From: a virus
Strand: one strand, 5' to 3'
DNA: 23,019 nt
Virus record (IMG/VR): IMGVR_UViG_3300008217_003711
Span: 1 to 23,019 of that record
In this document: piece by piece, positions 5,601 to 21,319 of the stretch
Layout of the letters: every line of letters begins with the position of its first letter
Numbering within the stretch: position 1 is the stretch's first letter
Notes under the pieces: model-generated
What the model was told of the DNA's origin: nothing
Seen by the model: the letters and a program-made list of their open reading frames with translations, nothing else
Databases searched by the model: none
Translations under genes and position numbers: made by a program

Positions 5601-8600
5601 CCTTCTCTTTTCCTGCATAATACTCTTTAGAAGAAAGCCATATAAGATCCTTTAAGTCCATAATATTTTCTGCAACAAATGGAAGCTCTTTAGAAGATCT
5701 TGCTACTCCAAACTCATTTCCACTTTTACTAAATTTCCCTACACTTGAATCAATAATTCTATATTTAAAAGAAATCTTACCACCCCATTGATCTGGATAC
5801 CTCTTAAAAATCTGCATATAGTTTCTATCATTAGGAAGAGACCCCTTTGGTCTATGTACATTTATCTGCTGTCTGGCAAGAAGATAAAACCTCAACATTA
5901 ACTGTTTTTCATATGTAGATATAGCAGCAGATACTACTCCGGTTAACTTAGGCTGAACATTGTCAAGCCAGTGGTCAAATCCAGCTGTGTTCATTTTTGC
6001 TGTATCAAAAAGTTTTCTCATATTCTGTGTACTTATAACAACTTTCAATGCATACATCGGAATATATTTTAACCTATTACCAGACCTCCTTGTATCTATA
6101 TTATATACACCAGTTCCTATAGATGGATCTAATATTTCTATATATGTATCATTTACTATACTTTCAACTACATTTGCATCTTCAAATACCACATCAGTTT
6201 GAATAGAGGGATTAAACTTCTTCCAGTTTATAATATCATTTTCCTCTCTATCGTCAATCCATCTCTCAAATACTTTCACCATATCCTTATTTCTACCTAT
6301 AAACTTCTTTATAGCATTAATCCATATATGAGCAGGCAGTCTATCCTCAGAAGCCTTTTTAGAGTATTCCCAAGCATTATCAAAAGCCTTAAAAAGAGTC
6401 TGTTCATCAATAGACAGAATCTCTTGATAATCTATTTGAATAGGAAGATTAGCCGGAATATCTGCAATCTCTGCATTAAAGAACATCTCTGATGCTATAT
6501 CAGCCACATCCTTATCTGTTAAAGCACCTTTAAAGAATTTCTTAAGTGCAAGTACGAATTTCCTCAGCCAAGTCCTTATACGGCTTATTAAGCCCTTATT
6601 CTTCATCTTGCCTGTATAATACTCTCCAATATACTGTACAAGCTTCTCTTCAGTCTTAAATCTTTTTATTCCTTCTTTTATAACAGGACTGTCTTTCATT
6701 AGCCTGACATAGATATGAGCATACTCATGAGGTATAGTATCAAGTGTAGCCTTCCCTTTACTCCATTCTACTGCATCTGTTAATGCTCTTCCTGCTACCT
6801 CAGATCCCTCTTCATCATATATCTCATCCACCCATTTAGCTTTAACCCAAGGAAACTGCTTCTTTAATCTCTTTTCCATAGCCCTTGCAAGCTTCTTGTT
6901 ATCTAAAGCCTTTACACCTTTTCTTGGTCTTTGGAATAGTGGTAGAGTTTTTCCGGGCTTTACTTCAGCTGGTTTAATTAATTTCTTTGTACGAACTTCT
7001 TTTTTAGTCTTAGAGTCATAGTAGCCAACCTTATCAAATCCTTTATCAACTAAATCCCATATAGGAATATCAAATAATACTTCAGGTTGATCTACATCCA
7101 TCTCCATCAATTCAAAAAGCTGATAAAGACTTACATCATCCATCTCTTTTTCAGATATAAATTCTTCAACACCACTAATACCTTCCTCTAAAGCAGACAA
7201 AGGATCTTCTCTAAATTTCTCTATTATCTTATCACCAGCATCACTAACTTTATTTATTACCCATTCTTTACCATCAAAGTAAATTATATCACCTTGAACA
7301 GGTCTTGCTTCATTAGATAATCCCCATAGCTTCTCAAACTTCCTGCTCCATTCTTTCATTCTAGGAGTTAACTTTTTCTTCTTTATCTTAGAAGTAAGTA
7401 CTCCTACTTCAGCTGGAACTTCTTTTATCGGTCTAGTCTTACGGAAGGTAAAACTAATTCTTGGCTTAGCCGATTCGCCTACAGCATGCAAGTAAGTATT
7501 TTGAAAATCACCTGCTGGTAGTTCGTAAATATCTCCTTCAGCTATCCTATGAGACTCTAGTTTTTCCCTAGTCCTTGGATTTATTATATCTATAACAGAT
7601 GTACCTCCAAGAGAAAGAACCCCAACAGAGCCGATTGTTTTATCCTCTAGCCTTAAAATATCTTCAGCATCAGAATGTGCTGGTATTCCTACACCTGCTG
7701 GCAGTTCATTTATTAAAACACTATTATAATATCCTTTGTCTAATTCTAATGCTTCCTCTATCTTTTCTTTAATCTGAGTAACAAGCTTAGGCATTTCTTT
7801 TGCTTTATGTGTGCTGCCAGTATAAATATAATCTCTTTCACCAAACCATACAGCTTTATGCCCTTTTCTAGTTGTAGTGCCTTTAGTATTTTTAATTATA
7901 TTTCTAATGCTCTCAGTAAAGCTTGTTAAATCTTTTCCTTTAATTCTTTCAATATGCTTTACACCAAGCTTGCTGACAACTGGTTTAGCATAAAGATCTG
8001 AAACAGGATCCCAAGTCTTTTTAACCGGAGCTACTTCAGCTGAAGCTTCTTTAGCTAATAGGTCTATTTTAGGAGCTTTCTGAATATTTTGATATATCCT
8101 ATTACTCTTGGTAGTACCTATATAATTCCACAATTTTTCAGGGTGAGCAGGAGACATTTGAAATAACTGTGTATCTCCAGAAGTTGTATCTTTAATCTTA
8201 ACTATACTATCAAACCTATCATCAACAGAAGGTAATTCTCCCTCAAAATATGAATCTTCAAACCGTTCTTCATAAAACTCTTTAGGAGATAGTCCAGACT
8301 TTTCAAAATCACCAAAATCCATTTCTGGAAATTCATATAAAACATCTACATCTTTTCCTTTACCTTTTTTGGCAGTACTGCCTATAAGAGTAACATTTAA
8401 AGCCCCAGATTTCTGAGATTTTAATGCGCTTGCTCTTATCTCTTCAATCTTTTCTACTTCTACTAGAGCTTCTTTAGCTTTAGGTTGCTCTGCTTTAGCT
8501 GGAGGTTTCTTTCTAGCCTTCATCTTACTTCTTCTAACTGCAGCAACTGCTTCTGGTCCAATATATTTAAGGAGTCTATCTTTCGCCATCCCTTCCAAGA

Positions 8601-11600
8601 AATCAGCTGTCCATATTTTATTAGGAATATTATCATCTATATATTTTAAAACTCTCTCTCGAAGCTCTTTATCTGGAAATACTTTAGATAATTCTTTATG
8701 AACTGCAAGTTCTTCTTCTGTAGCATCCCCCTGTTCAAAATCACCTCCAAATTCACCTGATAGAAGTTGAGTAATATCATTGTCTCTTTCAGGGTGGTCA
8801 AGCCCTACATATTCTCTCTCTCTCATGAGTTCTATAATCTTACTTCTTGTCTTCTCAGAAAGCTTAGTAACTTCTGTTGCGATCCCCCTTACTGTAAGCT
8901 TTGCTGAAGCTTTCTTCTTGGGCTTGGCTTTTTCTGTAGGTTTTTCTTTAATACCAAACAGCTTACGTATCTCCTGTCTGCCTCTTGGAGTAAGCTTTCT
9001 TGCACCTATACCAGCAAAAGACCCTGTAATCTTAGGAACTTCTGACTCTGAATACTTTTTTCCATCCCACTTATGCCACTTATTAGTCTTCATATCAAAG
9101 ACATATACAGGCTTACCCATATCTATTCCCATCTGAGTAGCCCAAGCTGTACCACCTACAACCTGACCATTAGATATTCTGGAAACTGCTATTACCTGCT
9201 CTGAATCTATGACTTGAAAATAGTTACGTCTAAGTAAATTAGCTGAAAAAGGACTTGAAGGTGGGAACCTCCTTTTTAAAGTTTTATTAGCTTTCTCAAG
9301 ATGCTTATCAGCTATACTTAATTCACCTGAATCATGCCCAACTCTTGCAGGGTTCTTCTTAGCATGACCCTCAAAAGAGTGAGCCCTAACAGTATATCCA
9401 GACTCTTCCGCAGCAATTTGAAACTCTGTATCAGCTCCATCAGCCCCCCCAGAATGAACTATAATCTCTCTGAGGGGCTTTTTAGCTTTAGGCTTCTTCT
9501 TTGGCTTGATTAATCTCCCCCAGAATTTTTTTGCTTCATGAAGATTTGCAAAGAACTGTCTTTCTTTAAGCTCTTCTGGAGACAACTCACTATCTTTTAG
9601 TTGTGTATGGCTTTTCCCATATTTTTTCTTTAATTCTTTATTAAAATTATCTAAGTCATTTGCTAAATCAAGATTCACATCTGTCCAATTATCATATGTT
9701 AGTTCATCTACAATTTCACCCATTTCTTCTTCATAATGTAAACGAGCTTCTTCAGACAAATCTTCCTGTTTAATCTTTTTATATTTTTTATCTGCAGCAA
9801 TCCAGTTTATCATTCTTTCTGCAAGACGTCTTATTTTACTTGGAGATTTCTTCTTGGGCTTCTCTCCCTCTTCTTTCACCTGTGTAACATCTCTTACAAG
9901 CTGGTCAGGAATAAACTGTTCTTGCTCCAGTTGATCGGGATCAAACTGTTCAATCTGAGTAACATCTTCAGGATATATTAAGTCTTCCTGCTGGTCTTGA
10001 ACAGGTTGTGTCTCTTGTTCAGGGAACTGTTGTACTGCTTCTTGTATAACTTCAGGCATATCCTCAAGCTGGATATTCTGTTCTGTATAAAAATCAGAAG
10101 CTATTTTAGGATCTATATCAATCTGTTCTAAAGCTTTAGGATCTTGCTCTAATGCTCTATTCAGCATTTCTGCTTCTGATATATTATCTCTACGAGCCTG
10201 TTTCCTTAGCTGATTACCTCTATACCGCTGTTTTTTATCTAACCTCTCCCCATCCATCAATACCATCTCAGCTATAATAGCCTGATCTGTCAACTTTTCA
10301 GACTTCTTTTCTTTCTCTGCCTCTGCTAATTCTTTTTCTGCATCTGTAATAGGAATACCTAGATATGTTTCTTCCTCAGCTTGTTTTCTTGCACGATAAT
10401 CCCTATCTAGTCTATTTAAGATATTTGCAAGCTCTGCATCAGCTTCTGTCGGAGCATCTGCTTTTGTTTCCTCTTCTTTTATTCTACCGGAAGCCTCTTC
10501 TGCAGTTTCTTTATCTGGCTTAAAATTGTACTTTTTACCAAGTGCATCTAAGGATGCTGAAAGAGCATTTCCCGAAACACCTGCTGCACCACCAGCAAAC
10601 ACACCCCCCCAGAAGTTTTGAGCACCCTCTTCACCCAATGCTCTATCCCATACACCTATAGATTCATCATAGCCATACTTATTTATAGTCTCACTCATCA
10701 AGAATTGAGTCCATTCAGTAAGACCTTCAGTTATAGCATTATTAAAGAAATCTTCAGTAAGGAATTTAGCTACAGGAGTTTGAGGTTTGACCTTTTTAGC
10801 TCTTAATATATGTTTATAGAACTTATCTCTGGTTGAGCCTAAGAGAGTTGGCTTTGCATCAATCCCAAGAATCTTACGACCTACTCTATTTCCAACAATA
10901 GTCTCAGGAATAGCTTGAACAGCTGCACTTACAAGAGAGTTTGCATCAGCTATCTGCATAGCCTCACCATCAGAATATCCAAGCTCCTTTAATCTCTCAA
11001 AATCTTCATGAAGCTCACTACCATAGATTCTGGCATAGTTATATGGAAGAGATGCTTTACCCCTGCTTAAAGCAAAGACACCAGCCTGACTCATTATTTC
11101 TGTTAATCCTTGACCTGTAAAGCTACCCACATCAGAAACATCCCATTTAAAAGGATTCCACCCGGCAGGGTTTTGAGATTTATATTCATAGTGAGCCTTT
11201 ATTCTGGGATTATTATCTCTCCAGCTTTCAATACGCTTTTTCCACTTCTCCCCAATAGGTTTAACTCTTTCAGCCTGCCTTCTTTTATCCTCTATATCTA
11301 TTCTATTTGCGTAGTCTTCAAAAGATTCTCCCTCCGTTGGATCAATCTCGAGTGCTACTGCTCCTGCCTTATCCCCATGCATCAGCTTATCTAAAGCTGT
11401 TTCAAGACCTTTTCCAGTTTCAAATAAACCTGTTTTAATACCAGCTCCGGCAGATTCAAAGAACCCAAGCTTATCATAGCTTTGACGGAATTTATCTTCA
11501 GCTGCAATTTTATCTATATCTGATTTAAGATCGGGGAATAAGTCTATTACGGGGGATTTAGGATTACTCTGATAATAATCCATGAAGTCGGCGGGATTTA

Positions 11601-11736
11601 CTTTGAAGTAATGCCTTACTATATCTTCATTCTTGAAGTCAGCAGAGCTATACCTCCTGTTTGTTCTTTTTATTCTATTAGCAAGTCTATCTAATTCTGC
11701 ATTATAATCATAAATTTCAGTATAGGGTGATCCCAT
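2671..11736 (-). CDS. Giant polyvalent virion protein with SLOG, NTase, AlkB-like, zincin and two-barrel RNA polymerase regions (3021 aa)
   Basis: One uninterrupted frame of 3021 codons. Seen in order: a Gly/Ala-rich helical region (about 95-400); an acidic Q/E/P-rich linker (400-755); a permuted SLOG domain (about 755-930); an unassigned helical stretch (945-1070); a Pol-beta-type nucleotidyltransferase (about 1095-1200; G1119-S1120, D1129/D1131, D1176); an AlkB-like dioxygenase (about 1245-1440; H1354, D1356, H1417, R1426, R1432); a zincin (H1670-E1671-H1674); and an RNA polymerase-like region (about 2200-2760; D2588/D2590/D2592). Lys/Pro/Ala-rich linkers separate the modules. Known background: phages and conjugative elements carry polyvalent proteins of this style, and crAss-like phages package a two-barrel RNA polymerase. 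Inference: it is packaged, ejected, possibly cleaved, and both transcribes early genes and counters host defence. It follows the 506-aa gene by four bases, with only a weak SD (AAGTGA directly before the ATG). Confidence 0.95.
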   Translation of the reverse strand: MGSPYTEIYDYNAELDRLANRIKRTNRRYSSADFKNEDIVRHYFKVNPADFMDYYQSNPKSPVIDLFPDLKSDIDKIAAEDKFRQSYDKLGFFESAGAGIKTGLFETGKGLETALDKLMHGDKAGAVALEIDPTEGESFEDYANRIDIEDKRRQAERVKPIGEKWKKRIESWRDNNPRIKAHYEYKSQNPAGWNPFKWDVSDVGSFTGQGLTEIMSQAGVFALSRGKASLPYNYARIYGSELHEDFERLKELGYSDGEAMQIADANSLVSAAVQAIPETIVGNRVGRKILGIDAKPTLLGSTRDKFYKHILRAKKVKPQTPVAKFLTEDFFNNAITEGLTEWTQFLMSETINKYGYDESIGVWDRALGEEGAQNFWGGVFAGGAAGVSGNALSASLDALGKKYNFKPDKETAEEASGRIKEEETKADAPTEADAELANILNRLDRDYRARKQAEEETYLGIPITDAEKELAEAEKEKKSEKLTDQAIIAEMVLMDGERLDKKQRYRGNQLRKQARRDNISEAEMLNRALEQDPKALEQIDIDPKIASDFYTEQNIQLEDMPEVIQEAVQQFPEQETQPVQDQQEDLIYPEDVTQIEQFDPDQLEQEQFIPDQLVRDVTQVKEEGEKPKKKSPSKIRRLAERMINWIAADKKYKKIKQEDLSEEARLHYEEEMGEIVDELTYDNWTDVNLDLANDLDNFNKELKKKYGKSHTQLKDSELSPEELKERQFFANLHEAKKFWGRLIKPKKKPKAKKPLREIIVHSGGADGADTEFQIAAEESGYTVRAHSFEGHAKKNPARVGHDSGELSIADKHLEKANKTLKRRFPPSSPFSANLLRRNYFQVIDSEQVIAVSRISNGQVVGGTAWATQMGIDMGKPVYVFDMKTNKWHKWDGKKYSESEVPKITGSFAGIGARKLTPRGRQEIRKLFGIKEKPTEKAKPKKKASAKLTVRGIATEVTKLSEKTRSKIIELMREREYVGLDHPERDNDITQLLSGEFGGDFEQGDATEEELAVHKELSKVFPDKELRERVLKYIDDNIPNKIWTADFLEGMAKDRLLKYIGPEAVAAVRRSKMKARKKPPAKAEQPKAKEALVEVEKIEEIRASALKSQKSGALNVTLIGSTAKKGKGKDVDVLYEFPEMDFGDFEKSGLSPKEFYEERFEDSYFEGELPSVDDRFDSIVKIKDTTSGDTQLFQMSPAHPEKLWNYIGTTKSNRIYQNIQKAPKIDLLAKEASAEVAPVKKTWDPVSDLYAKPVVSKLGVKHIERIKGKDLTSFTESIRNIIKNTKGTTTRKGHKAVWFGERDYIYTGSTHKAKEMPKLVTQIKEKIEEALELDKGYYNSVLINELPAGVGIPAHSDAEDILRLEDKTIGSVGVLSLGGTSVIDIINPRTREKLESHRIAEGDIYELPAGDFQNTYLHAVGESAKPRISFTFRKTRPIKEVPAEVGVLTSKIKKKKLTPRMKEWSRKFEKLWGLSNEARPVQGDIIYFDGKEWVINKVSDAGDKIIEKFREDPLSALEEGISGVEEFISEKEMDDVSLYQLFELMEMDVDQPEVLFDIPIWDLVDKGFDKVGYYDSKTKKEVRTKKLIKPAEVKPGKTLPLFQRPRKGVKALDNKKLARAMEKRLKKQFPWVKAKWVDEIYDEEGSEVAGRALTDAVEWSKGKATLDTIPHEYAHIYVRLMKDSPVIKEGIKRFKTEEKLVQYIGEYYTGKMKNKGLISRIRTWLRKFVLALKKFFKGALTDKDVADIASEMFFNAEIADIPANLPIQIDYQEILSIDEQTLFKAFDNAWEYSKKASEDRLPAHIWINAIKKFIGRNKDMVKVFERWIDDREENDIINWKKFNPSIQTDVVFEDANVVESIVNDTYIEILDPSIGTGVYNIDTRRSGNRLKYIPMYALKVVISTQNMRKLFDTAKMNTAGFDHWLDNVQPKLTGVVSAAISTYEKQLMLRFYLLARQQINVHRPKGSLPNDRNYMQIFKRYPDQWGGKISFKYRIIDSSVGKFSKSGNEFGVARSSKELPFVAENIMDLKDLIWLSSKEYYAGKEKVVTYPSGKQFTAGYRWSYNFLNENELHQMSQDVINFDSGSHNKLVPVFIRGDSMRIAFAYTKDSHMEKAGDISYWEEQEKDGFITKKQLKWQRGQMGKNKEFLAQEIAVFEIMNRIMPGYATFKDSPKIIMRFKIPITPVIRLEGAPDEVVMFINPETTKIKLGLNDAFDMMVDVPGVGIKNRFDGATFKSKAAFNSLVKFGGLDISASTAKTVGYEISGNTTLSAEEKLISAIFGEKFIGGDVYAQKHLEFLADRGMQWFDEDGNMIAEVRDDGDIYTADGEYVSYIQTPDEAKIRTGKYDVFNTPIRVSGDSLGIIQYSDQVHTKGKMLRQQFNFIRDRKYKEAILKNMINSGLMHKVLTNAVQSLQSAEGIKTLVTNINKSFPDNLSASYINIAKIGGGRHPAIIKALTGIPSSDRAKYSGLVVSKMIDPAINFDGLPGTILSFKPDTSGQLELFDAAIPFKNAKFLRSRFLKENKGENYNFKNVRKWVRDTKPEINVGRTPIPHKNGVSMLSIVDIDSHRRKNEVRLNPILVYLYKEADNDGDHLHIVDIQDNMKVATREYFTGEEYTKDVHGINIADYVDEVEYNLLDRVDRNKIYEALAFHAQAEVSKIQAIYGILQDTFESIDINEIGKLSIRSGDKIITVPEMKNEKHTVDNMLRIYLQAAVDNGKHLLLSQWNYSRGNLIAKLFEFGNGKGLDEYESDIKEVALSVIYKSIWTHANETYAINNTLDTTGKFNLTQLVDKSIALKESIDARIENWALALNIDSSDGDIINITYKDDALNLNESTAVKIGEIFKNEDMRKQNIAEYHNHIYLDAHRTALEYVKENIGYEHNFPSSNYANGLVNMLKDYFKVVDIKDQGKRKKPLSGRPAFPDVWDTSEHLVGMIEVKANQFANLSEKHKILATIDFLEKYGRLVNDDDGISRLDLFPLPVDKTRHTVLDQDVAGIYFKQFDKALDEDYMNKDSKEIRCP
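3457..5139 (-). other. Two-barrel (double-psi beta-barrel) RNA polymerase-like region (residues about 2200-2760)
   Basis: GRTPIPH-K (2547-2554), R-L-N-P (2575-2578) and EADNDGDHLHI (2586-2596) reproduce, in order and near-identical spacing (R to first D is 40 residues versus 35 in E. coli), the beta-prime active-site barrel NRxPTLHR ... LHP ... NADFDGD. D2588, D2590 and D2592 would bind catalytic Mg. Upstream, RFDGATFKS (2229-2236) resembles the D-G-x-x-x-(I/F)-x-S start of the first barrel in single-chain polymerases, and K2372/K2374 (HTKGKM) are candidates for its lysines. QAAVDNGKHLLL (2712-2723) is a long helix that might be bridge-helix-like, which is speculative. Confidence 0.65.
6427..6924 (-). 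other. Zincin metallopeptidase domain (residues about 1605-1770)
   Basis: DTIPHEYAHIYVRLM carries the HExxH zinc motif (H1670, E1671, H1674). A glutamate in EEKLVQYIGEYY (E1697 or E1705) is a candidate third ligand. The following W-L-R-K-F...K-K-F-F-K-G...D-V-A-D-I-A-S-E-M helix is a pattern I recall downstream of such phage metallopeptidases. Likely roles are cleavage of the giant protein itself or of host proteins after entry. Confidence 0.8.
7417..8004 (-). other. AlkB-like 2-oxoglutarate/Fe(II) dioxygenase domain (residues about 1245-1440)
   Basis: NSVLINELPAGVGIPAHSDAE carries the HxD iron ligands (H1354, D1356). LSLGG follows, then an AEGDIYELPAGDFQ segment, the distal iron ligand H1417 (LHAV), and R1426...R1432 in PRISFTFR for 2-oxoglutarate binding. 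This is the full AlkB order. AlkB enzymes oxidatively demethylate alkylated nucleic-acid bases. In a packaged protein it could repair phage DNA or remove or alter base modifications; that role is inferred. Confidence 0.85.
8137..8454 (-). other. Pol-beta-superfamily nucleotidyltransferase domain (residues about 1095-1200)
   Basis: The segment VTLIGSTAKKGKGKDVDVLY gives the G-S ... D-x-D signature (G1119, S1120, D1129, D1131). A third acidic residue, D1176, sits in a beta-strand-like FDSIVKI. Together they form the metal-binding triad of minimal nucleotidyltransferases. Family members transfer nucleotides to small molecules, proteins or RNA. The substrate cannot be told from sequence; host-protein or tRNA/antibiotic-type modification are all possible. 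Confidence 0.7.
8947..9474 (-). other. Circularly permuted SLOG/YpsA-like domain (residues about 755-930)
   Basis: HSGGADGADTEF at 761-772 matches the second glycine-rich nucleotide-binding loop of SLOG/LOG proteins. A GGTAWA...MGIDMGKPVYVFD segment follows. Only then comes FAGIGARKLTP (907-917), which in ordinary SLOG domains is the first beta strand and loop. The order is therefore permuted, as described for the cpYpsA family. SLOG domains bind or process nucleotide-derived ligands such as ADP-ribose derivatives, and occur in phage polyvalent proteins and immunity systems. The ligand here is unknown. Confidence 0.75.
10537..11736 (-). other. N-terminal Gly/Ala-rich helical region of the giant protein (residues 1-400)
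   Basis: After a charged start, residues about 90-110 (ESAGAGIKTGLFETGKG), 203-225 (GSFTGQGLTEIMSQAGVFAL), 255-283 and 335-396 (ITEGLTEWTQFL, then WGGVFAGGAAG) form small-residue-rich amphipathic or hydrophobic helices. Similar stretches occur in large internal/ejection proteins of podophages, where they may help cross the cell envelope. That role is inferred from composition only. Confidence 0.5.
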
Positions 11737-11740
11737 TCAC

Positions 11741-13261
11741 TTAATTTTCGGGCTTCTGAGACTGCAGAAATACTATTTCTTGAAGTTTAGTTCTTAAATC
11801 AAGAAGATCGAGCATCCTGCTTACAACATCTACATCATAATCACTTACCCCCATCACCCAATCTACTGTACCTTGCTCTTCAAAATTAAAAGAGCTGAGG
11901 CTATTTCTACTCTTTGAAAGCTCATTTAATAACTTTTGAAGATGGTCGGCTTTAGTAATAATTAGCTCTCCGTCTTCATCAAGAAGTGATTCAGAATACA
12001 TAGGAGCATTCTCTATATTGCCTAAATACCTTTTAAAAACCTCATTATCACCACCTTTTGCTTGCTTTATAAGGCTAAATAAAGCATTTTCAACCTTATC
12101 AAGCATAACTTCATTAGCTTCATCACTTTCTTGAAGCCATTTTGATTTACCAAAATCATCTATATCATCAAATGCTTTTCTTACATCTTTAGAACCAAGA
12201 TTTTTACCTTCCTTGTGCAGACGGTTTAAATCTTTTACAGCAGAAGTATAATATTTCATAGCTGCTGCAATTTTTTCATCCTCAGCAACAGACTTACTTT
12301 CTAATACAGATTCATTTGAACTCTCTAAATAAATAGGCATTTGCTCAAGGATTCTTAATGCCTTTGTTGGGTTCCCGGCATTCTTATGAATTTCTATTAA
12401 GTCAAAAACAGTATTTATACTACGATTAGAAACCTCTTGATCAGTTTCAGGGTCTATATAAGATACCATCCGGTCTTTTACATGCGGTAAAAATTTTCCC
12501 TCTTCATCATAATAGTGGAACTTTAGATTTTCTATTTCCTCTTCACTGGCTTCGTTAGTAATCTTAATTGTCTTAGCAAGATCAAAATCTTGATAAGCTC
12601 TATTATATCTACCACGTATGTAATTATCATATCCTGATTGCATTCTATACTTATACTGAGTATTATTTATAGTTGATTGAAGCTGGAAGCCCGGTTTATT
12701 TGGATCATCTGCATCTGCAAACAGTGAATAGATAGAAGCAGTCTTTTTTAACTCATCTAACTGCTTATTTAAAGTCGGTATACCTCTAAGTCTATCTTGA
12801 TTATCTTCTATATATGTCTCTACATCCTGTATAAGGGGAGACAAATCGGTAGATAAATCTTCATCCTTTAAACCTGATTCTATCTCTGTAAATAAACCTT
12901 TTATATGATTCATAGATTCATTTTTTTCACGTATATCTGTAGACCTTATACCAAACTCGGTATTTAATACATCTAAAGAGGTTCTCATAAGCTCATCACC
13001 ATCAAACTTTGGATACAGAGCATTTATAGATTCACCAACGCTATCTATATCATCATCTGTACTATGCTTATCTAGAGTACCAATCTTTTTAGAAATATTT
13101 TCAAGTAATAATTTATCTATTTCTATCTGTTTCTCTTGATCCTCCTTCTGCTTCTGTTCCTGCTTATTACGCTTATCTCTAATATTTTCTATTAAGTAGA
13201 AAGGTATATCTCTTCTAATAAAGTCTTCTAAGGGATCTCTGGTATCAAAGAATTGAGCCAT
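11741..13261 (-). CDS. Helical TPR-like putative internal virion protein (506 aa)
   Basis: The product is almost wholly charged alpha-helix. Residues 28-60 are a Lys/Gln/Glu-rich coiled-coil-like stretch. Residues about 203-233 (YDNYIRGRYNRAYQDFDLA) and 283-312 (VFDLIEIHKNAGNPTKALRI) have the spacing of tetratricopeptide-like helical hairpins. It is Ser/Asp/Glu-rich and lacks a signal peptide, membrane segment or enzyme motif. It sits 10 bases after the Cys-rich gene and 4 bases before the giant protein gene, so it is probably co-translated with proteins destined for the virion interior. No SD precedes the ATG at 13261, only an A/T-rich tttttatata, so initiation may rely on coupling. Function not recognised; structural or chaperone-like scaffold is a guess. 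Confidence 0.85.
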   Translation of the reverse strand: MAQFFDTRDPLEDFIRRDIPFYLIENIRDKRNKQEQKQKEDQEKQIEIDKLLLENISKKIGTLDKHSTDDDIDSVGESINALYPKFDGDELMRTSLDVLNTEFGIRSTDIREKNESMNHIKGLFTEIESGLKDEDLSTDLSPLIQDVETYIEDNQDRLRGIPTLNKQLDELKKTASIYSLFADADDPNKPGFQLQSTINNTQYKYRMQSGYDNYIRGRYNRAYQDFDLAKTIKITNEASEEEIENLKFHYYDEEGKFLPHVKDRMVSYIDPETDQEVSNRSINTVFDLIEIHKNAGNPTKALRILEQMPIYLESSNESVLESKSVAEDEKIAAAMKYYTSAVKDLNRLHKEGKNLGSKDVRKAFDDIDDFGKSKWLQESDEANEVMLDKVENALFSLIKQAKGGDNEVFKRYLGNIENAPMYSESLLDEDGELIITKADHLQKLLNELSKSRNSLSSFNFEEQGTVDWVMGVSDYDVDVVSRMLDLLDLRTKLQEIVFLQSQKPEN

Positions 13262-13271
13262 TATATAAAAA

Positions 13272-14264
13272 TCAAATTATACAGTTTCCATTAGACCATG
13301 TACCACCAGCTGCTACACAGCAATCCTCTCTAACATATGGTGACGGACAATCAGTTCCAGCAGAGCCTTTGTCTGCACTTGAATCTAATTTAGGTTCACC
13401 CCAATAATCAGAAGTGCCACTTTCATCCCCATCTCCCTCAGTAGAATTTCCAAGACAATCAAATCCGGGATCAGGATATTCGCAATCCCCGTCAGCTCCT
13501 GTATTACAAGCATTTTCATCTGTGCATGTAGTTCCACCACTTGTAACATCGTCATCTCCCACACACATACAGTTTTCAGTATTTAAAATCTTGTCTATGC
13601 TTGCACAATCATCTGCTGTAAGAGGACAATCTCCTGCGGTTTCTTGATCATACCAGTCTGGAAGTTCTCCTTCAAAATCTCCTGCCTCTACACAATCTCC
13701 ACCATCTCCAGCATTAGGATCCCATATTTTTCCTTCTTGACAGAACTGTGCTCCGTATGCACTTGATAAATCTTCTACCTGCTGTTCAAAAGCTTCTGTC
13801 CAGTCTTGCATCTCCTGAAAAGCTCCAGATTCAAAAGTCTGCTGAGATTCAGATCTAGAAACATCTCTTTCTTTGAAAAGATTGCCCATAGCTTCCATTA
13901 AAGTTTTTCCAACACCACCAAAGCCAACATCTGGTCCATACTTTCCAAATAGTTTATCTGCCTCTCTTTTTGCTGTTCCAACACCCTTACCTACCTTGGA
14001 TGAAGCCTCACTAATACCCTGCTTCATTGCATCAAACAACATATTCTGTTTAGATGGATCATAATCTGCAAACATATCTGTATAATCTCCGGGATTCTGT
14101 AAACCGAATGTATACTGCAACATATCAGCTAATGTATCATCATCCATATCTAGCCAATCTTGAAAAATATCAAAATTATCAGGAGTCATAAAATCATCAC
14201 CAAGTCCAGCATATCCACCATGCTCAAACTTTCTTGCTTCTATTAAAGGATTACCTAATTTCAT
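13272..14264 (-). CDS. Putative virion protein with Cys-rich acidic C-terminal half (330 aa)
   Basis: Two halves differ sharply. Residues 1-170 are helical and free of cysteine, with Gly-rich amphipathic stretches (KVGKGVGTAKREADKL, GPDVGFGGVGKTL). Residues 171-330 hold all 14 cysteines (175, 191, 213, 220, 232, 234, 247, 253, 261, 270, 306, 315, 316, 328) in an Asp/Gly-rich background. The segment CTDENACNTGADGDCEY plus GFDCLGN (247-273) resembles a Cys/Asp repeat I associate with secreted proteins of marine bacteria. The end, EDCCVAAGGTWSNGNC, looks like another small disulfide module. Such a domain would be expected to fold by disulfides or bind calcium outside the cytoplasm, which is odd for a phage internal protein. 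The N-terminus (RKFEHGG) resembles that of the preceding gene. Function unknown. Confidence 0.85.
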   Translation of the reverse strand: MKLGNPLIEARKFEHGGYAGLGDDFMTPDNFDIFQDWLDMDDDTLADMLQYTFGLQNPGDYTDMFADYDPSKQNMLFDAMKQGISEASSKVGKGVGTAKREADKLFGKYGPDVGFGGVGKTLMEAMGNLFKERDVSRSESQQTFESGAFQEMQDWTEAFEQQVEDLSSAYGAQFCQEGKIWDPNAGDGGDCVEAGDFEGELPDWYDQETAGDCPLTADDCASIDKILNTENCMCVGDDDVTSGGTTCTDENACNTGADGDCEYPDPGFDCLGNSTEGDGDESGTSDYWGEPKLDSSADKGSAGTDCPSPYVREDCCVAAGGTWSNGNCII

Positions 14265-14267
14265 GAC

Positions 14268-14882
14268 TTATGTAAACATTGGATCATTAGGTTCACCGGG
14301 TTTAGGGCTAAACATATCTAAAATATCCTGAAGCCAATCGTCACCCTCCAACTCACCGAAGAAAGCCATATCTGAAAAAGCTCCAAGAATATTTTCCAGA
14401 TCCTGACTACGTTTAGATTTGTCTATGTTGCTACTAAACAGATCTTCATCTGACAAAGCACCAGACTTAAGACGAGATCTTGAACCCTTGTGAAAACGGC
14501 TATCACCCAACTCTCTGTCTTTAGCAAAATCAGCCCAAGATAATTTTGCAACATCAGGAGCCAGTGCTGTTCCAAGCCAAGACCCTAACCCAGAACCCAG
14601 AGCAGTAGTTCCAGCCTTTAAAAGAGGATTTTCTATACCATATCTTTTACTAGCTGCTTGACCAAAAAATCCACCGCCCTTACCACCAATAGCACCATAT
14701 CTACCCCTAGTAATAAGATCTTTTTCAGCTTGAGTACGCCTTTCCTCCTGATAGCTCCTCCAAGCATCTTCAATAGATTTAAGTCTATTCATTTCAGTAT
14801 TAGCTTCTAAGGTAGCCATAAGATTCATTATATTTTGTCCAGACAGACCACCTTTTTGAAATTTCTTTATACCATATCCCAT
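14268..14882 (-). CDS. Small putative internal virion protein with Gly-rich amphipathic stretch (204 aa)
   Basis: The ATG at 14882 follows GGAG by six bases. Residues 27-58 form a charged helix. Residues 62-108 (GRYGAIGGKGGGFFG, then KAGTTALGSGLGSWLGTAL) are glycine- and alanine-rich with hydrophobic faces, like short podophage ejection proteins. The C-terminus is acidic with Trp/Phe residues. The N-terminus MGYGIKKFQKGG shares a K-F-x-x-G-G pattern with the next gene (RKFEHGG). It is the first gene after the only sizeable gap in the window, so it may head a sub-operon with the Cys-rich, TPR-like and two giant proteins. Role inferred from context and composition. Confidence 0.85.
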   Translation of the reverse strand: MGYGIKKFQKGGLSGQNIMNLMATLEANTEMNRLKSIEDAWRSYQEERRTQAEKDLITRGRYGAIGGKGGGFFGQAASKRYGIENPLLKAGTTALGSGLGSWLGTALAPDVAKLSWADFAKDRELGDSRFHKGSRSRLKSGALSDEDLFSSNIDKSKRSQDLENILGAFSDMAFFGELEGDDWLQDILDMFSPKPGEPNDPMFT

Positions 14883-14926: not shown

Positions 14927-15559
14927 CTATACAAACAACTTTTGATATATAGGAATTAATGCTTTATTAGATTTATAATACTTACAATCCTTAGAAGGAG
15001 TAACATATAAGCTACTTTCAGAATACTTTATATCAAATCTATCCCTCAAAAGTTTCCTTCCAGATTCAGGCTTATTTAAAAATATACAAGCTCTTCCACC
15101 ATCTTTCATAAGATAATCAAATGCTTTATGTAAAAATATCTCTCCTCTACCTGAATCAGCAACCTTCTGTATAAGTGTATAATCATCATTCTCTGTTATA
15201 AGAGGATAATCGTCAAAGAATATACAATCATACTTCCCAAGAGAATCCACAACATTCTGCCATACATCTCTTATTATGCAAACTTTATCCATATATTTCT
15301 CAGACCACATCTCAGCTTGAGCTATTACAGTTGGATGACATTCTACTATTGTATGTGAATCTATATCATACTTATGAAATCTTTCAGCAGAGTATCCCAT
15401 ACCATACCCTATCTCTAAAACATCACCAGAAGGCTCTAAAGCATCCACACACGCCTCCATCCAAGGCTTCTCCCACTCCATCATCACTTGATGCTTTTTA
15501 TCCCTTATAAGAGCATTCTTAGTGTATTCCATACCACATTGTGTTGCATTCTCTATCAT
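14927..15559 (-). CDS. Class I SAM-dependent methyltransferase, GAMT/RMT2-like (210 aa)
   Basis: Residues 24-35 (QVMMEWEKPWME) match the V-M-x-x-W-E-x-P-Y-M element before the fold in guanidinoacetate N-methyltransferase and RMT2. Motif I is VLEIGYGMG (47-55). The acidic residue after strand 2 is E73 in HTIVEC. IFFDDYPL (113-120) matches the Y-D-T-Y-P-L of GAMT, whose Asp binds the guanidino substrate. These features favour this family over DNA methyltransferases, since no N/D-P-P-Y motif is present. Its ATGA start overlaps the tail-fibre stop by four bases, so it is coupled to it. Plausible roles are methylating a virion protein residue such as an arginine, or a host metabolite; sequence alone does not decide. 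Lengths near 200-240 aa are normal for the fold. Confidence 0.8.
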   Translation of the reverse strand: MIENATQCGMEYTKNALIRDKKHQVMMEWEKPWMEACVDALEPSGDVLEIGYGMGYSAERFHKYDIDSHTIVECHPTVIAQAEMWSEKYMDKVCIIRDVWQNVVDSLGKYDCIFFDDYPLITENDDYTLIQKVADSGRGEIFLHKAFDYLMKDGGRACIFLNKPESGRKLLRDRFDIKYSESSLYVTPSKDCKYYKSNKALIPIYQKLFV

Positions 15560-18441
15560 ACTCTCTCTATAGTTATATATCCACCATGTATTTGAGCAGC
15601 ATTTGCATTAGGATAAAAGACAATAGCAAGATAGTTAGTCGTTGATGCAACCACATCAGTCATATTTACTTCTGTATCACAGTTAGTTGCAGAAGATTTT
15701 GCTGTAGTTACACTATTTGCTATGTTGCCTTCGTAGATTCTATATTGGTCAGATGTATCATTAGAATAGACATTTGCATGAGTAGCTCTAAAACCGCTTG
15801 GAATAATAACACAAGCTACAGCATCTGTAGTCTGCTCTTGATCATAAGAATATCCACCAGTAGCGTGCATTGTAGTTACATCTGCATAATCTGTCTGCCT
15901 TGCAACACTATGATTTAACTGATACCCAACACTTTTGAAATCACTTGGAAGTATCTTAATTCTTGTAGAGGTAGCTAAAGCAGGTTGTTGACTCCAAACT
16001 ACCTTAGAATTTGTATCATCCCATGTTAATACTTCATCATCAGCAGGCGTATCTTGACCAATAGCGGTTACTTCTCCAGCTGAGGAAACTGCAATAGCTG
16101 TTCCACCACCCCCACCTGTTCCTATATTCCCTCCACCAGATAGAAGTAAGTCTGACAATAAAGTTAAATTATTTACATCTGTTATATTTGCATTCTCATC
16201 TATAGTAAATATATCTGTTCCGGTACTATTTTTTTGAATCTTATATGTAGCAGAGGCACCACCGGTATCATTATCATCTATCCTTACTGCAAAATTCTCA
16301 TCACACTTGATTAACATAGTATTTTCAGCACAAGTTATATTCTGAACTTTTATACTCTTAGAGCTATTCATAGAAAGCCCATCAGGACTAATATCAAATA
16401 TCTTAGTACCAGCATTGGCAAATTCTACAGTATTTGAGAAATTAAAATCAGCATCTTCACTTATTGCAAGGCTATTAGTATATCCACCACCACCATCAGC
16501 TTTCTGTATATAAATATAGTTTGTACTATTTCCATTATAATCCGGTCTTATAGCTATATTTGTCTCTGCTTGGATAATCAAAGAACTTGCTGTATCTGAG
16601 TTCTGGAATATACTTGCTTCTACAGTAGCATCAGCAACACCATAAGTACCATCAGCTTGAGGTTTTTCAAGCTTTAGCTTTGCTCCTGTGCCATCCCCAG
16701 TTTGAGTTATCTTTAGATCTCCAATATATACAGTTCCCTTGTTAAAATAACCATCTCCTGCATATATACTTTTAAACTTTCTGAACTTAGACCCAAGATT
16801 TACAAACCCATCTTTCCCCGGAATAATATGACCCTTCTCATATATCTTTATCCCGTCTTGATAAGTAGCTCCTCCATCATTAGTATATTGGAATCTAACC
16901 ATATCCTTAGAGTTTCCATTATAGTCTGGTCTAAAAGCTATACTTGCTTGAGACCTTACTACAACCGAACCTGCTGAGCCATCTGAAGTATCTGTATTTT
17001 GGAAGAAATCAGCCTCAATTACAGTATTCCCAGTAGTATAAGAAGAGGCATCATTAACAGCTTTATTTGTTATCTTTAGCTTGGCATTGTTCCCCTCGCC
17101 TGCTGCTTCAAGTTTTAAATCTCCAAGAAAAATACTTCCTTTGTCAAAATGTCCATCTTTAGCCCAAATCTGCTTAAATTTCTTACTTTTTGAACCAAGA
17201 CTACAGCCATACATATTTCCCGGCTGCACATTACCCTTTTCATCTATAGTAAGAGCATCTCTATAAGTAGTACCGCCATCTGTAGTTCTCTGGAATAAGA
17301 CTTTAGCAAGACTATTACCATTGTAGTCAGGTCGTATAGTTATGTTAGTAGCTGCTTCAAGGCGTAAAGCACCAGCACTTTGTATTACTTGAGGTGTAAT
17401 AGTCATATTATCAGCACTATAAGAAGATCCTCCTTCTGCCGTAGCAGCCTCAACTTCCAGCTTTGCTGCTGGACCTACACCAGTAACCGACATCTTTATA
17501 TCGCCAATATAGATAGAGCCTGAATCAGCTCTTACTGCTTCGCAGTATAGTGTATGAAATTTACTAGAGGCTTTACCAAGATTAACACCCTCATCTGCAT
17601 TTGGAATCAGATCTGTTGTTATATCCTGAAGACTTAGATTTACTCTTGTGCCTGCTGCCTGAGCAGACTCAAGCTTTAGTGGACTAAAGGAATTGTTTCT
17701 ATAATAAAATTCACCTGAATCGCTGTCTACATATATAATACCAATACCATTTACAGCAGCTGGATCTGTAGCTACTCCTTTAAACCCTAAATGACCACCA
17801 GATGTATCATGAACTCCAAGGTATACAGAAGAAGTACTTTGGCTAGTAGTACCAACTATAGATAACCCTTTACCACCAGTAGCATATCCAAGCATTCTTA
17901 TACCAAGATAATTTCCACTATTATAATTAGCAGGACTTAGACTACCATATATAATACCACCTTCGTTATCAAATCCAGAACCTAAAAATAGCTGACCCTG
18001 TTTATTTGATACTTCATCTTCACCAAAAGCAACAGAATGTTCTAAGCTAGTATCTGCATCCTCAGATGCACCCTTACCAACCACCTTCACCTCCACTCCA
18101 GCCTTATCTTTGAATAATAAGTCTGAACCATCAGCAGAAAGCTTTACACTTAAATCTTTTGTATCTCCAATATATAAAGCACCATTAGACAGATAGAGAT
18201 TCTTCCATCTTCTTATATTAGACCCCAAGCTGTATATTCTGCTCTTATCTGGAATTAAATCTGTAGAAGAATGAAATATCTTCAACCATTTGCCCATACC
18301 TTTAAAAAAGATAAATATGCCATCTTTAAGTCTTGCAAGCACAAAATCTCCTTCAGCTCCCTCTCTATTTAAAGGCTGTCTTGATCTTCTACTAGGTTTA
18401 TTTGCTTTACTCGATAGTAATGCTTTTATTTTATTTAACAT
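15556..18441 (-). CDS. Repeat-built tail fibre protein (961 aa)
   Basis: A short basic N-terminus (KANKPSRRSRQPLNREG) precedes a beta-rich domain. Then come repeated modules, each with N/S-L-G-S-K-x-x-K-F-K, a Y-I-G-D strand and R-P-D-Y-N-G-N-S. Residues about 770-800 are a Gly-rich hinge with GGGNIGTGGGGGTA. The last roughly 140 residues (from TRIKILPSDF) have a different, Asn/Thr/Tyr-rich beta composition and probably form the receptor-binding tip. This build is typical of trimeric phage fibres that bind host surface glycans or proteins. The start overlaps the preceding 962-aa gene by 11 bases. Only a weak purine stretch (GAATGAAGA) precedes the ATG. No intramolecular chaperone or lyase motif was recognised. 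Confidence 0.85.
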   Translation of the reverse strand: MLNKIKALLSSKANKPSRRSRQPLNREGAEGDFVLARLKDGIFIFFKGMGKWLKIFHSSTDLIPDKSRIYSLGSNIRRWKNLYLSNGALYIGDTKDLSVKLSADGSDLLFKDKAGVEVKVVGKGASEDADTSLEHSVAFGEDEVSNKQGQLFLGSGFDNEGGIIYGSLSPANYNSGNYLGIRMLGYATGGKGLSIVGTTSQSTSSVYLGVHDTSGGHLGFKGVATDPAAVNGIGIIYVDSDSGEFYYRNNSFSPLKLESAQAAGTRVNLSLQDITTDLIPNADEGVNLGKASSKFHTLYCEAVRADSGSIYIGDIKMSVTGVGPAAKLEVEAATAEGGSSYSADNMTITPQVIQSAGALRLEAATNITIRPDYNGNSLAKVLFQRTTDGGTTYRDALTIDEKGNVQPGNMYGCSLGSKSKKFKQIWAKDGHFDKGSIFLGDLKLEAAGEGNNAKLKITNKAVNDASSYTTGNTVIEADFFQNTDTSDGSAGSVVVRSQASIAFRPDYNGNSKDMVRFQYTNDGGATYQDGIKIYEKGHIIPGKDGFVNLGSKFRKFKSIYAGDGYFNKGTVYIGDLKITQTGDGTGAKLKLEKPQADGTYGVADATVEASIFQNSDTASSLIIQAETNIAIRPDYNGNSTNYIYIQKADGGGGYTNSLAISEDADFNFSNTVEFANAGTKIFDISPDGLSMNSSKSIKVQNITCAENTMLIKCDENFAVRIDDNDTGGASATYKIQKNSTGTDIFTIDENANITDVNNLTLLSDLLLSGGGNIGTGGGGGTAIAVSSAGEVTAIGQDTPADDEVLTWDDTNSKVVWSQQPALATSTRIKILPSDFKSVGYQLNHSVARQTDYADVTTMHATGGYSYDQEQTTDAVACVIIPSGFRATHANVYSNDTSDQYRIYEGNIANSVTTAKSSATNCDTEVNMTDVVASTTNYLAIVFYPNANAAQIHGGYITIERV
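16417..17583 (-). repeat. Three tandem about 130-residue fibre repeats
   Basis: Module starts fall at residues 287 (NLGKASSKFHTLY), 414 (SLGSKSKKFKQIW) and 548 (NLGSKFRKFKSIY). The strand R-P-D-Y-N-G-N-S recurs exactly at residues 370, 504 and 632, spacing 134 and 128. A degenerate first copy (SLGSNIRRWKNLY, residue 71, with YIGD) lacks the R-P-D-Y-N-G-N-S part. Identity appears high at the protein level but diverged at the DNA level, so the duplications are not very recent. Confidence 0.85.
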
Positions 18442-21319
18442 TCTTCATTCTATATACTATAGATATATCACCAATCTCAAAACCAGCAGGGACATTTGTA
18501 GATCCGGGAGTAGCTGCCTCTAATTTCAACTGGAAAGAATAAATATTATTTGCTTGTGAAGATGTTGCAGGCTTTAAAACTGCTTTATAATAATCAGGCT
18601 CTTCTGTTGAAGATAGATCTGAAACTTCAATAAAATCTCCTGATACAGCTGATTGATTCTCTACATAAAAATAATGATCTACAGCTGTTGCGGTAAAAGA
18701 AAAGCTGTAAGCACCCTCCTGACCTACAACTTTAGAGAATATATTGTTTGTATCTGGGTTTGCAGTAGAAGTTGTAACGCTAAAAATAGCTTGAAAAGGC
18801 TTAACATTCTCCAATCTTGAAGTTCCACCAAATCCGGGTTTAAAATACAGTCTGATATTATAAGTTCTAGCTTCCAATGTTCCTAAATTATATCTTGCAT
18901 ATCCTTTAGCTGCTCCGCTATTTTTATATCTTATTGTATTATTAGAAGAAGTTTTAGTTAACCCTGTTCCACCACTACTATTATCACTACTTAAATCAAA
19001 TACCCCCGATCCTGCATCTATATTTGTACTAAAATCTTCTGATGTTGTATTAAGTTCATTAGAAACAAAGTTATCTCCATCCTCAAATAACTTTGCAAAT
19101 TCAGGGCTTCCATCTGTTGAATAGCTTGCTTTTACATTTGTATCCTGTTTATTGGTTTTAAAAGATATATATACTTTATAAACCTTCTTTTTTACATTTG
19201 GGAATCCAAATACTATATCTGGAGTAACCAGCCTAAATTCGTTATTCTCTGCAGGTAAATCTTTTATAGAATACAAATCAAGCTTTTCAGTTGCTGATGT
19301 AGGATCATATTGAACAAATCTTGGAACACCAGAAGAATCTACCATAAAGTTAGACCTGTTTCTACTAAAGGTTCCTATAGCCCCGGAAGCTAAAGTCCAT
19401 CCTTCAGTCTTAAAATCATATACCCATGCATCATTAGCATTATCATCTCCATTCATACTATGAGACATCCATAGTTGCTTTTTAGAGAATAAATAAGTAA
19501 TAGCAGGAGTATGACTTGGATCTACAGACCATCTCTGAGAAAGAGTTCCACCAGACCAATTTGCTGAAGGAAGCCAGACACCACCAGAATACACTTTCCC
19601 TTCAACAAGATTCACAACATCTGTCTCCCCGGCATATAAATAACATCCACTAGGATTTATCCAAGCTATACCCTTCTCAAATTTTACTACTTGAGAAGCA
19701 TGATTTATACCAATATAAGGTAATTGTTTCTCTACAAACTCTGCTCCATCCTGAGATACATTGACAATATATACAGACTTCTTCTTAAAGACTAATAATC
19801 TATCAGCATATCCTTCAAGCTCTATAATATCATCACCATCATTTACAGCTATATCCATCTTATGTGTAGCTGGGAAAGTATCAAATTGAGGTCTGCCCTC
19901 AAAGTTTACTGGAGACCTTACAATTCTATCAGGATAAATAGGAGTAAAAGTATCATATGCATCTGTAACTTTTGCTACCTGTTGTATATTTCCTATATAT
20001 GTTCTATTGTTAAATATTGTAGCACACTTATACTTAGCAGAAGTTACTTCTTCTGGTCCATATCCATTCAATATATCATATGTCAAGGCTTTAGGAGGAT
20101 CTTCAAACTCGAAGCCCTTTGTAATTGCAGTTATAGCAGTTCCATCTATACCAGCCGGACATTCAAATTCTCTATAAGGTACTGTATTGCCCCAAACAGT
20201 ATAATCAAGTTCATCTGCCTTTTTACAGCCTTTTACAAGATCTATATCAAGGAATAAGTATTTTGTTCCGGATCCATCAGCTGGATCAGAATAATATAAT
20301 CTACCGCCAGTTATTCTTGGGTTAATTCTCCATACATTATCAGGAACTTCTGCAGATTCTCCGTCAGCTCCAGATGCATACTGTACAGTCACTCCAACAA
20401 ATACACTCTCTCCAGACGATCCCATAGTAAGAGTTCCCAGCTGAGTAACAGGAGATTCTTGAGAACCATCATATATAAAACTGAGATAAAAAGTATAAAC
20501 TGCAGATAAATCCCATGTGCTACTTGCATTAGCTATTGAATCAACCCATATCTCCATACAGTCATCATCCGAAGGAGCATCAACATTTGCTCCAGTATTT
20601 TCAAAAGCTACGCTTCCAGCTACAGTAGACCCTCTCCCTGTTATCCATTGTTCATGATAGTTACTTGCAGAATCCAATTTCGGAGGTATAAGCTCTTGAG
20701 CCTCTGCATGCCACCTATTATGGTTTACCAGCTTATCTGCTGTATTACTTGCTGTAGCATCAACAAATAGAGACCTCTTTATATGACCAAACCATCTATT
20801 TTTAAACCCAACATCATTATTGGAGTTTGTATAATTGCCATCAGCAACTCTTAAAGCTCCATCTCCATAGTAAAATACAGGTTTAACTACAGCATTAGTA
20901 CCAGCATCTGCTCCAAGATCAATAGAATAATTAGCTAAATTGAATGATGTAGAATTAGCATCCCATACAGGTATTCCTCCAGCCACACGATCTAAGAGAA
21001 AGAATAGTGGTCCATAAAAGTACACATAAAACTCAGTCTCTCTTTCAACTGCAACTGCAGCACTTGCTGGTCTGGTAAAATCGGAAGGAAATGTAAAGAA
21101 GCCTGTTCCGGGAATAAGCTTATAATCTGTATCTGTTAAGGTTCCTGTAGAATAGTCACCACTCTCTATTTCTGCTTTTGGTAAGAGCTTTACAATGCCT
21201 ATAGTACCTACATCGCAAGCCTTGGCGGTTACTAGTCCACCAGCAGGTATATCTTTTGAATCATAAGCACTTAGAATGCCCTTTTCAAATCTATCTATCC
21301 TGAATATCTGCTTGGGCAT
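18431..21319 (-). CDS. Large tail/neck structural protein, beta-propeller-like with jelly-roll C-terminus (962 aa)
   Basis: The N-terminus (F-E-K-G-I-L-S-A-Y-D, then D-I-P-A-G-G) and the central segments DRLLVFKKKSVYIVN (506-520), PYIGINHASQVVKFEKGIAWI (534-554) and SGCYLYAGETDVVNL (557-571) recall beta-propeller tail or stabilisation proteins of short-tailed phages (P22 gp10 / T7 gp12 style): a 'switch on, check, display' strand pattern repeated around the ring. From about residue 735 a Thr/Ser/Asn-rich, jelly-roll-like beta domain follows (RYNLGTLEARTYNIRLYF). Position directly before the fibre gene (11-base overlap) fits a tail-hub or fibre-attachment role. Its ATG shares the A of the upstream TGA (TGATG). 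No enzymatic motif was seen. Family assignment is by fold-like pattern, not by clear identity. Confidence 0.7.
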   Translation of the reverse strand: MPKQIFRIDRFEKGILSAYDSKDIPAGGLVTAKACDVGTIGIVKLLPKAEIESGDYSTGTLTDTDYKLIPGTGFFTFPSDFTRPASAAVAVERETEFYVYFYGPLFFLLDRVAGGIPVWDANSTSFNLANYSIDLGADAGTNAVVKPVFYYGDGALRVADGNYTNSNNDVGFKNRWFGHIKRSLFVDATASNTADKLVNHNRWHAEAQELIPPKLDSASNYHEQWITGRGSTVAGSVAFENTGANVDAPSDDDCMEIWVDSIANASSTWDLSAVYTFYLSFIYDGSQESPVTQLGTLTMGSSGESVFVGVTVQYASGADGESAEVPDNVWRINPRITGGRLYYSDPADGSGTKYLFLDIDLVKGCKKADELDYTVWGNTVPYREFECPAGIDGTAITAITKGFEFEDPPKALTYDILNGYGPEEVTSAKYKCATIFNNRTYIGNIQQVAKVTDAYDTFTPIYPDRIVRSPVNFEGRPQFDTFPATHKMDIAVNDGDDIIELEGYADRLLVFKKKSVYIVNVSQDGAEFVEKQLPYIGINHASQVVKFEKGIAWINPSGCYLYAGETDVVNLVEGKVYSGGVWLPSANWSGGTLSQRWSVDPSHTPAITYLFSKKQLWMSHSMNGDDNANDAWVYDFKTEGWTLASGAIGTFSRNRSNFMVDSSGVPRFVQYDPTSATEKLDLYSIKDLPAENNEFRLVTPDIVFGFPNVKKKVYKVYISFKTNKQDTNVKASYSTDGSPEFAKLFEDGDNFVSNELNTTSEDFSTNIDAGSGVFDLSSDNSSGGTGLTKTSSNNTIRYKNSGAAKGYARYNLGTLEARTYNIRLYFKPGFGGTSRLENVKPFQAIFSVTTSTANPDTNNIFSKVVGQEGAYSFSFTATAVDHYFYVENQSAVSGDFIEVSDLSSTEEPDYYKAVLKPATSSQANNIYSFQLKLEAATPGSTNVPAGFEIGDISIVYRMKNVK

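Follow-up and report, generated by a model that had tools for sequence, protein, structure and literature searches.

A putative late protein of an environmental phage carries a cysteine-rich half with a module found in bacterial secreted proteins

Results

The locus and its relatives

We analysed a virus record of 23,019 bases, hereafter called the window. Its genes run in the order putative tail protein (962 aa), fibre (961 aa), methyltransferase-like protein (210 aa), a protein of 204 aa, P0001, proteins of 506 and 3021 aa, and an open frame of 893 aa (table 1). A GGAG-like site was present at 4 of the 13 gene starts, and no tRNA was found in the window. The 962-aa protein received no assignment from PDB or PHROGs; the best PDB match of its profile, to beta-lactamases (E 0.1), was taken as chance. 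The giant 3021-aa protein matches 2OG-FeII_Oxy_2 over residues 1300-1432 (E 4.3e-07, 30.8 bits for a cut-off of 31.2). A (K/R)KFxxGG stretch occurs close to the N-terminus of both P0001 and the 204-aa protein (positions 14214-14234 and 14847-14867, minus strand). The similarity is not significant (E 0.59); a docking or processing signal common to both proteins is conceivable.

Table 1. Position of P0001, its predicted parts and the neighbouring genes in the window.
Feature	Position	Strand	Description
P0001, 330 aa	13272-14264	minus	open reading frame and translation; helical N-terminal half, cysteine-rich acidic C-terminal half
P0001 residues 1-170	13755-14264	minus	cysteine-free, helical by AlphaFold2 at low confidence
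P0001 residues 171-330	13275-13754	minus	cysteine-rich acidic half
Bead 1, residues 171-200	13665-13754	minus	C175, C191; two short strands predicted in the AlphaFold models
Bead 2, residues 206-242	13539-13649	minus	C213, C220, C232, C234; short helix and two strands in the AlphaFold models
Bead 3, residues 243-276	13437-13538	minus	C247, C253, C261, C270; CxDxxACN...CxYPxxxxDCxGN module
Linker, residues 277-304	13353-13436	minus	mostly predicted disordered; pLDDT below 50 for residues 282-304
Bead 4, residues 305-330	13275-13352	minus	C306, C315, C316, C328; AlphaFold models; CxAAGGTWx4C motif
962-aa protein	18431-21319	minus	tail label by position only; anchors synteny; 27% identity, E 1e-32 to L002
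961-aa putative tail fibre	15556-18441	minus	weak: End_tail_spike E 0.0017 (below cut-off), minor tail protein E 0.0063
210-aa methyltransferase-like protein	14927-15559	minus	7 cysteines; sub-threshold NodS E 0.0055, Methyltransf_25 E 0.011
204-aa protein	14268-14882	minus	function not assigned; upstream of P0001
506-aa protein	11741-13261	minus	no cysteine; downstream of P0001; position of the relatives' 416-444-aa proteins, no sequence match
3021-aa polyvalent-type protein	2671-11736	minus	AlkB-like 2OG-Fe(II) oxygenase region; HEYAH zinc-peptidase-like motif (by eye)
893-aa open frame	2-2680		runs off the record

The 962-aa protein is common to a set of related viral contigs, at 24-28% identity, in which the gene order is tail, 126-146 aa, 249-299 aa, 416-444 aa and a giant protein of 2253-2411 aa. 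Similarity to the giant protein of the window (22%) was found for L002 (identical to L016), L015 and L017, and the counterpart in L012-L014 was judged from size and place. Three small cysteine-free proteins lie between the tail and giant genes in all five contigs with a visible block (L002, L012, L013, L014 and L017, among which L013/L014 and L002/L017 are close pairs). Profile comparison revealed no similarity between P0001 and these small proteins, and gave no mapping of the 204-aa and 506-aa proteins onto them. Since the small block proteins of the five relatives lack cysteine, the cysteine-rich domain would answer no conserved need. The 210-aa gene separates the fibre gene from the P0001 block, and the five relatives have no gene of that size at this position.

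L014 has upstream genes for a major head protein and for an endolysin, which places the P0001 block, as judged from these assignments, in the late region of a tailed phage. Given this setting in a late block with a polyvalent-type giant protein, we take P0001 as a late, probably virion-associated protein, for which an exposed and an internal position are both possible. The initial annotation had called it a phage internal-type protein, a name given by inference with no observation behind it, and had likened its N-terminal half to a cytoplasmic ejection protein. The gene position agrees with this latter idea, as P0001 lies between tail genes (weakly labelled) and polyvalent or internal genes, before the polyvalent-type protein. 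By sequence, P0001 has no Pfam or NCBIfam family and reaches PHROGs at E 0.15 only, its N-terminal half had no homologue in any of the searches, and it has no match among the relatives' block proteins, bearing in mind that fast-diverging proteins can escape such searches.

A cysteine-rich acidic half in P0001

The 14 cysteines of P0001 are residues 175, 191, 213, 220, 232, 234, 247, 253, 261, 270, 306, 315, 316 and 328, and there is none in residues 1-170. The translation thus bears out the initial annotation, which had counted 14 cysteines confined to residues 171-330 and had quoted the motifs ACNTGADGDCEY, GFDCLGN and EDCC, all of which are found. It had also described this half as acidic, which is correct: residues 171-330 have 37 D+E and 5 K+R (pI 4.05), have no histidine and show a strong D/G/S bias. 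Both C-x-C and C-C occur among the groups of four cysteines. The remaining window proteins have 22 cysteines altogether (12 proteins examined, 6415 residues, with the 893-aa open frame left out of the count). At this rate, the probability of at least 14 cysteines in 160 residues is 9e-16 under a binomial model, a rough yardstick that takes residues as independent, and the cluster is therefore far above chance. Codon use gave no sign of recent capture: the third-position GC of P0001 (0.188) is inside the range of seven other window genes (0.138-0.256).

Searches with the complete protein gave no relative among viral contigs and a best E of 6 among phage records. The best PDB match had an E of 1.9, a profile search of the PDB had weak matches only (best E 0.24) on residues outside the beads, and the viral fold library gave nothing under E 0.001. 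No Pfam family matched residues 171-330. We found no signal-peptide-like N-terminus by eye, and no sorting domain in Pfam or NCBIfam.

We modelled the whole protein and the cysteine-rich half alone with AlphaFold (at modest confidence, mean pLDDT 59.5 and 70.6, pTM 0.32 and 0.27, respectively), from input alignments that held relatives for bead 3 only, plus one row for bead 2. In the AlphaFold2 model of the whole protein, means over ten-residue blocks are 31-57 for residues 1-140 and 62-70 for residues 141-170, and the low-confidence helical N-terminal half ends with a helix at 139-173. The better-predicted segments coincide with all four cysteine groups in both models, and the half modelled alone has the short elements and the poor linker of the whole-protein model. 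The models suggest that the cysteine-rich half is divided into four small beads, which hold 2, 4, 4 and 4 cysteines. The even number in each bead is compatible with disulfides within beads and does not prove them.

Bead 3 is homologous to a module of bacterial secreted proteins

We built an HMM from 24 distinct cellular modules, none of which came from the window. Bead 3 scores 46.2 bits, for maxima of 10.1 among 5,000 full shuffles and 14.5 among 5,000 shuffles with fixed cysteines. The conservation of cysteines among the 24 modules is itself no test, because they were picked with a cysteine-containing expression. We also made tblastn alignments, without such an expression, to loci L002-L033 (minus L010), a set in which L003-L009 and L018-L020 came from cysteine-containing patterns and L023 duplicates the stretch of L019. 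C247, C253, C261 and C270 fall on cysteines in 31, 31, 31 and 30 of the 31 distinct alignments, a count in which overlapping alignments of one module may be included repeatedly; identity over the other positions of residues 247-273 is 54%. The four cysteines, ACN, YP and DCxGN of the bacterial modules all occur in bead 3 in the same order. Its short spacing, in which six residues separate ACN from the third cysteine, recurs in L018, L019 (= L023), L021, L022 and L026-L033. Ser274 of P0001 replaces a fifth cysteine found after DCxGN in 21 of the 24 cellular modules; as it is absent from the other three too, this cysteine is usual rather than defining.

The short-spacing pattern CTDxxACNx6CxYP occurs in three MAG contigs (bacterium TMED6, an uncultured Chitinophagales and an uncultured Flavobacteriales), and residues 171-330 match two of these three genomes at E 0.001 or better. 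The top match is genome G002 (E 4.4e-10, 66% identity across 41 residues). At the same threshold, one of 295 genomes in the class of G002 and one of 198 in its order have a match, which in both cases is G002 itself. In the class of G001, 9 of 150 genomes match, G001 included. With residues 171-330 as the query, the distribution of the module across genomes is thus patchy. We found no family model for the CxDxxACN module. Among the open-licence PMC papers listed, none dealt with it, as judged from titles and the opening of abstracts.

The cellular carriers of the module look exported, judging from their other domains. Por_Secre_tail, the type IX sorting domain, matches the carriers in L019 (E 6.5e-12, also matched by TIGR04183) and L021 (E 4.5e-13), and is found below the cut-off in L028 together with FlgD_ig. 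Lamin-tail (LTD) domains are present in L031, L022 and L018, and several cellular carriers have signal-like N-termini by eye. Besides L019, which was scanned separately, the family scan covered seven carriers, five cellular and two viral; of the latter, L006 has no family and L009 has only a dockerin below threshold. The carrier in L027 had no match in NCBIfam, its sole scan, and those of L026, L029, L030, L032 and L033 were outside the family scans. The family matches of the scanned carriers concern other domains, with their best stretches outside the module.

These results establish that bead 3 is homologous to a module that occurs in secreted proteins of bacteria. Bead 3 belongs to the CxDxxACN module, while P0001 as a protein is not of the exported carrier kind: it has a lone module, no evident signal peptide or sorting domain, and a serine in place of the usual fifth cysteine. 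The initial annotation had proposed that the phage captured a host extracellular module in residues 171-330. The part that survives is bead 3, whose four cysteines are conserved in bacterial secreted homologues, so that its homologues are not restricted to phages with non-conserved cysteines. For the other three beads the comparisons gave no such support, as detailed below.

The module in other virus contigs

The pattern DGxCxYPxxxxDCxGN was found in seven viral contigs, which correspond to six distinct module proteins (L003, L004, L005 = L008, L006, L007 and L009; L005 and L008 are near-identical). The short-spacing scan retrieved one viral contig, again L006. Two of these six other proteins have assigned tail or baseplate neighbours. 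Baseplate wedge genes (E 1.1e-28 and 9.4e-17) are found close to the module gene of L006, and a tape measure gene (E 4.6e-15) immediately precedes that of L009. A gene near the L004 module is shared with L006 (45% identity, E 9e-89) and has no match in PHROGs. L005/L008 and L007 showed no clear structural neighbour; the match to a baseplate hub next to L005 is weak (E 0.018). The viral module proteins differ from P0001 in that L003-L008 carry 18 to 96 cysteines and L009 carries 14 in 1603 aa, in that 6 of their 7 distinct modules are of a longer variant, and in their gene neighbours. BLAST searches of phage records with proteins or stretches taken from L005, L006, L019, L041 and L037 found nothing, which is weak evidence because low-complexity masking lowers their sensitivity.

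The module protein of L003 is a secreted-type protein in its entirety, type IX sorting domain included, rather than a phage fusion. This virus-called contig has two adjacent secreted-type cysteine-rich proteins (L003:794-4113), one of them with the module and the sorting domain, and their neighbours include a collagen-like gene (by eye) and a PHROGs match to 'regulator of chromosome condensation'. A phage may have captured a whole gene here, or the contig may be an artefact of assembly.

Beads 1, 2 and 4

The pattern CxAAGGTWx4C of bead 4 was found in 14 viral contigs, which form three groups among L034-L047. The first comprises 10 contigs with one protein family, of 557 aa where whole; its copy in L043 matches the PHROGs 'amidase' (E 3e-44) and 'virion structural protein' (E 8.4e-14). 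The second (L037 and L038) comprises related large proteins encoded ahead of another large gene, and the third (L039 and L041) related proteins of 359 and 294 aa. The exact pattern was absent from 171 genomes of the class of G001 and 295 of the class of G002, a scan that variants would escape. In the loose tblastn alignments described above, C306, C315, C316 and C328 fall on cysteines in 11 of 15, 5 of 8, 3 of 7 and 2 of 2 cases.

Bead 1 had no homologue in viral contigs, in phage records or in a pattern hunt over the collected loci. That hunt used regular expressions for beads 1 and 4 and retrieved nothing, which says little on bead 4 because the expression was stricter than the CxAAGGTWx4C scan. 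Over beads 1 and 2, the equally loose alignments place C175 on cysteine in 0 of 2 cases, C191 in 3 of 6, C213 in 5 of 10, C220 in 10 of 12, C232 in 5 of 13 and C234 in 3 of 13.

We rejected bead 2 as a host-type module: it scores 2.1 bits with an HMM of five host segments, a value equalled by 753 of 5,000 shuffles with fixed cysteines and 351 of 5,000 full shuffles. In the whole-protein model, it resembles the VEGF heparin-binding-like fold at low Z (3.2 over 34 residues for 4deq and 2.3 over 34 for 1vgh); the model of the half alone gave no Z of 2 or more in a comparison with just four chains. A PDB match of bead 2 (a 36-residue query) to ribonuclease inhibitor (E 0.0083) was put down to chance, with single stretches below 6 bits.

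Bead 3 is host-type, bead 4 has a phage-type motif (CxAAGGTWx4C) found, as an exact pattern, in phage contigs and in none of the 466 bacterial genomes scanned, and beads 1 and 2 are orphans without a demonstrable homologue. We therefore regard the cysteine-rich half, as far as sequence comparison goes, as a composite.

Discussion

Phages with host-like extracellular domains are already a known kind. We propose that P0001 is a late, probably virion-associated protein that carries a putatively disulfide-stabilised string of beads, one of them host-type, facing outward or into the periplasm, a reading that we consider about equally likely to be right or wrong. The helical N-terminal half would anchor the protein to the particle or to partner proteins, and the C-terminal half would be a flexible, strongly acidic string of four beads with room for up to seven disulfides. 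Because P0001 has no obvious signal peptide, its cysteines would stay reduced in the cytoplasm until lysis or delivery to the periplasm. They would then oxidise and make each bead rigid, and the rigid beads would work in the oxidising exterior, where they may bind host surface material or stabilise an exposed part. Bead 3 descends from the bacterial secreted module or shares a common ancestor with it, hinting that phages borrow a secreted-protein module for parts that face the cell exterior. Part of the phi-crAss001 report describes disulfides in the tail and portal-vertex region (PMC10172136), a precedent for such bonds within a phage particle. The bonds described there are between tail hub and ring proteins or within a gp57 dimer, and a string of cysteine beads does not figure in that part of the report. 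Against our reading stand the absence of whole-protein relatives, the proof of host homology for just one bead in four, the serine of bead 3 in place of the usual fifth cysteine, the lack of cysteine in the small block proteins of five relatives and the modest confidence of the models. The place of the gene before that of the polyvalent-type protein fits cargo or ejection equally well.

The latter point leads to a serious rival, which we regard as possible but somewhat doubtful, namely that P0001, following the initial annotation, is an internal ejection protein with a cargo-like N-terminal half and a cysteine-rich half that, once ejected, is stabilised by disulfides in the periplasm or the outer membrane of the host. 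It differs from the favoured reading mainly in the final location of the beads. Polyvalent proteins typically have their genes in the vicinity of virion genes and are believed to be injected (PMC5512222). The gene of P0001 likewise has putative tail genes on one side and that of a giant multidomain protein on the other, although P0001 has itself no recognised polyvalent domain. The window also parallels the relatives' order of tail, small proteins and giant protein, and in L037 and L038, too, another large gene (at least 1041 and at least 490 aa) comes after that of the CxAAGGTWx4C protein. However, the relatives' block proteins are dissimilar, cysteine-free and not themselves proven ejection proteins, and two of the six other viral module proteins adjoin assigned tail or baseplate genes. 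Passage through the narrow tail would presumably need unfolding, so that disulfides could form only afterwards.

We judge two further explanations improbable. The cysteines come in fours, including C-x-C and C-C, as they might if they bound zinc or iron-sulfur in a cytoplasmic domain, but residues 171-330 have no histidine and match no Pfam family, and bead 3 belongs to a module of exported proteins. The half could instead be a drifting acidic tail of no specific function, in which the likeness of bead 3 is a relic of an old recombination. Its absence from the five relatives, the two beads with no homologue and the D/G/S bias would agree with such drift. The retention of bead 3 at up to 66% identity argues against it, as do the even cysteine count in every bead and the better prediction of all four cysteine groups in the AlphaFold models.

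Beyond P0001, we tentatively suggest a wider picture, which we think rather less likely than not. In it, an uncatalogued module would be exchanged between late proteins of environmental phages and surface proteins that bacteria export by the type IX route and by others. The bead would be soft in the cytoplasm, would be locked by oxidation after lysis, and would give virions or ejected parts a host-like adhesive surface; P0001 would add a phage-type CxAAGGTWx4C bead, and phages would assemble composite strings of beads locked by oxidation. As we found no family model for the module, defining its family would help to annotate the secreted proteins of uncultured bacteria. If this picture is true, post-lysis oxidation would be a maturation step of phage parts, the CxDxxACN...CxYPxxxxDCxGN motif would be a sequence handle for locating such parts, and phage virions would be connected with an as yet unnamed building block of the proteins that bacteria secrete.
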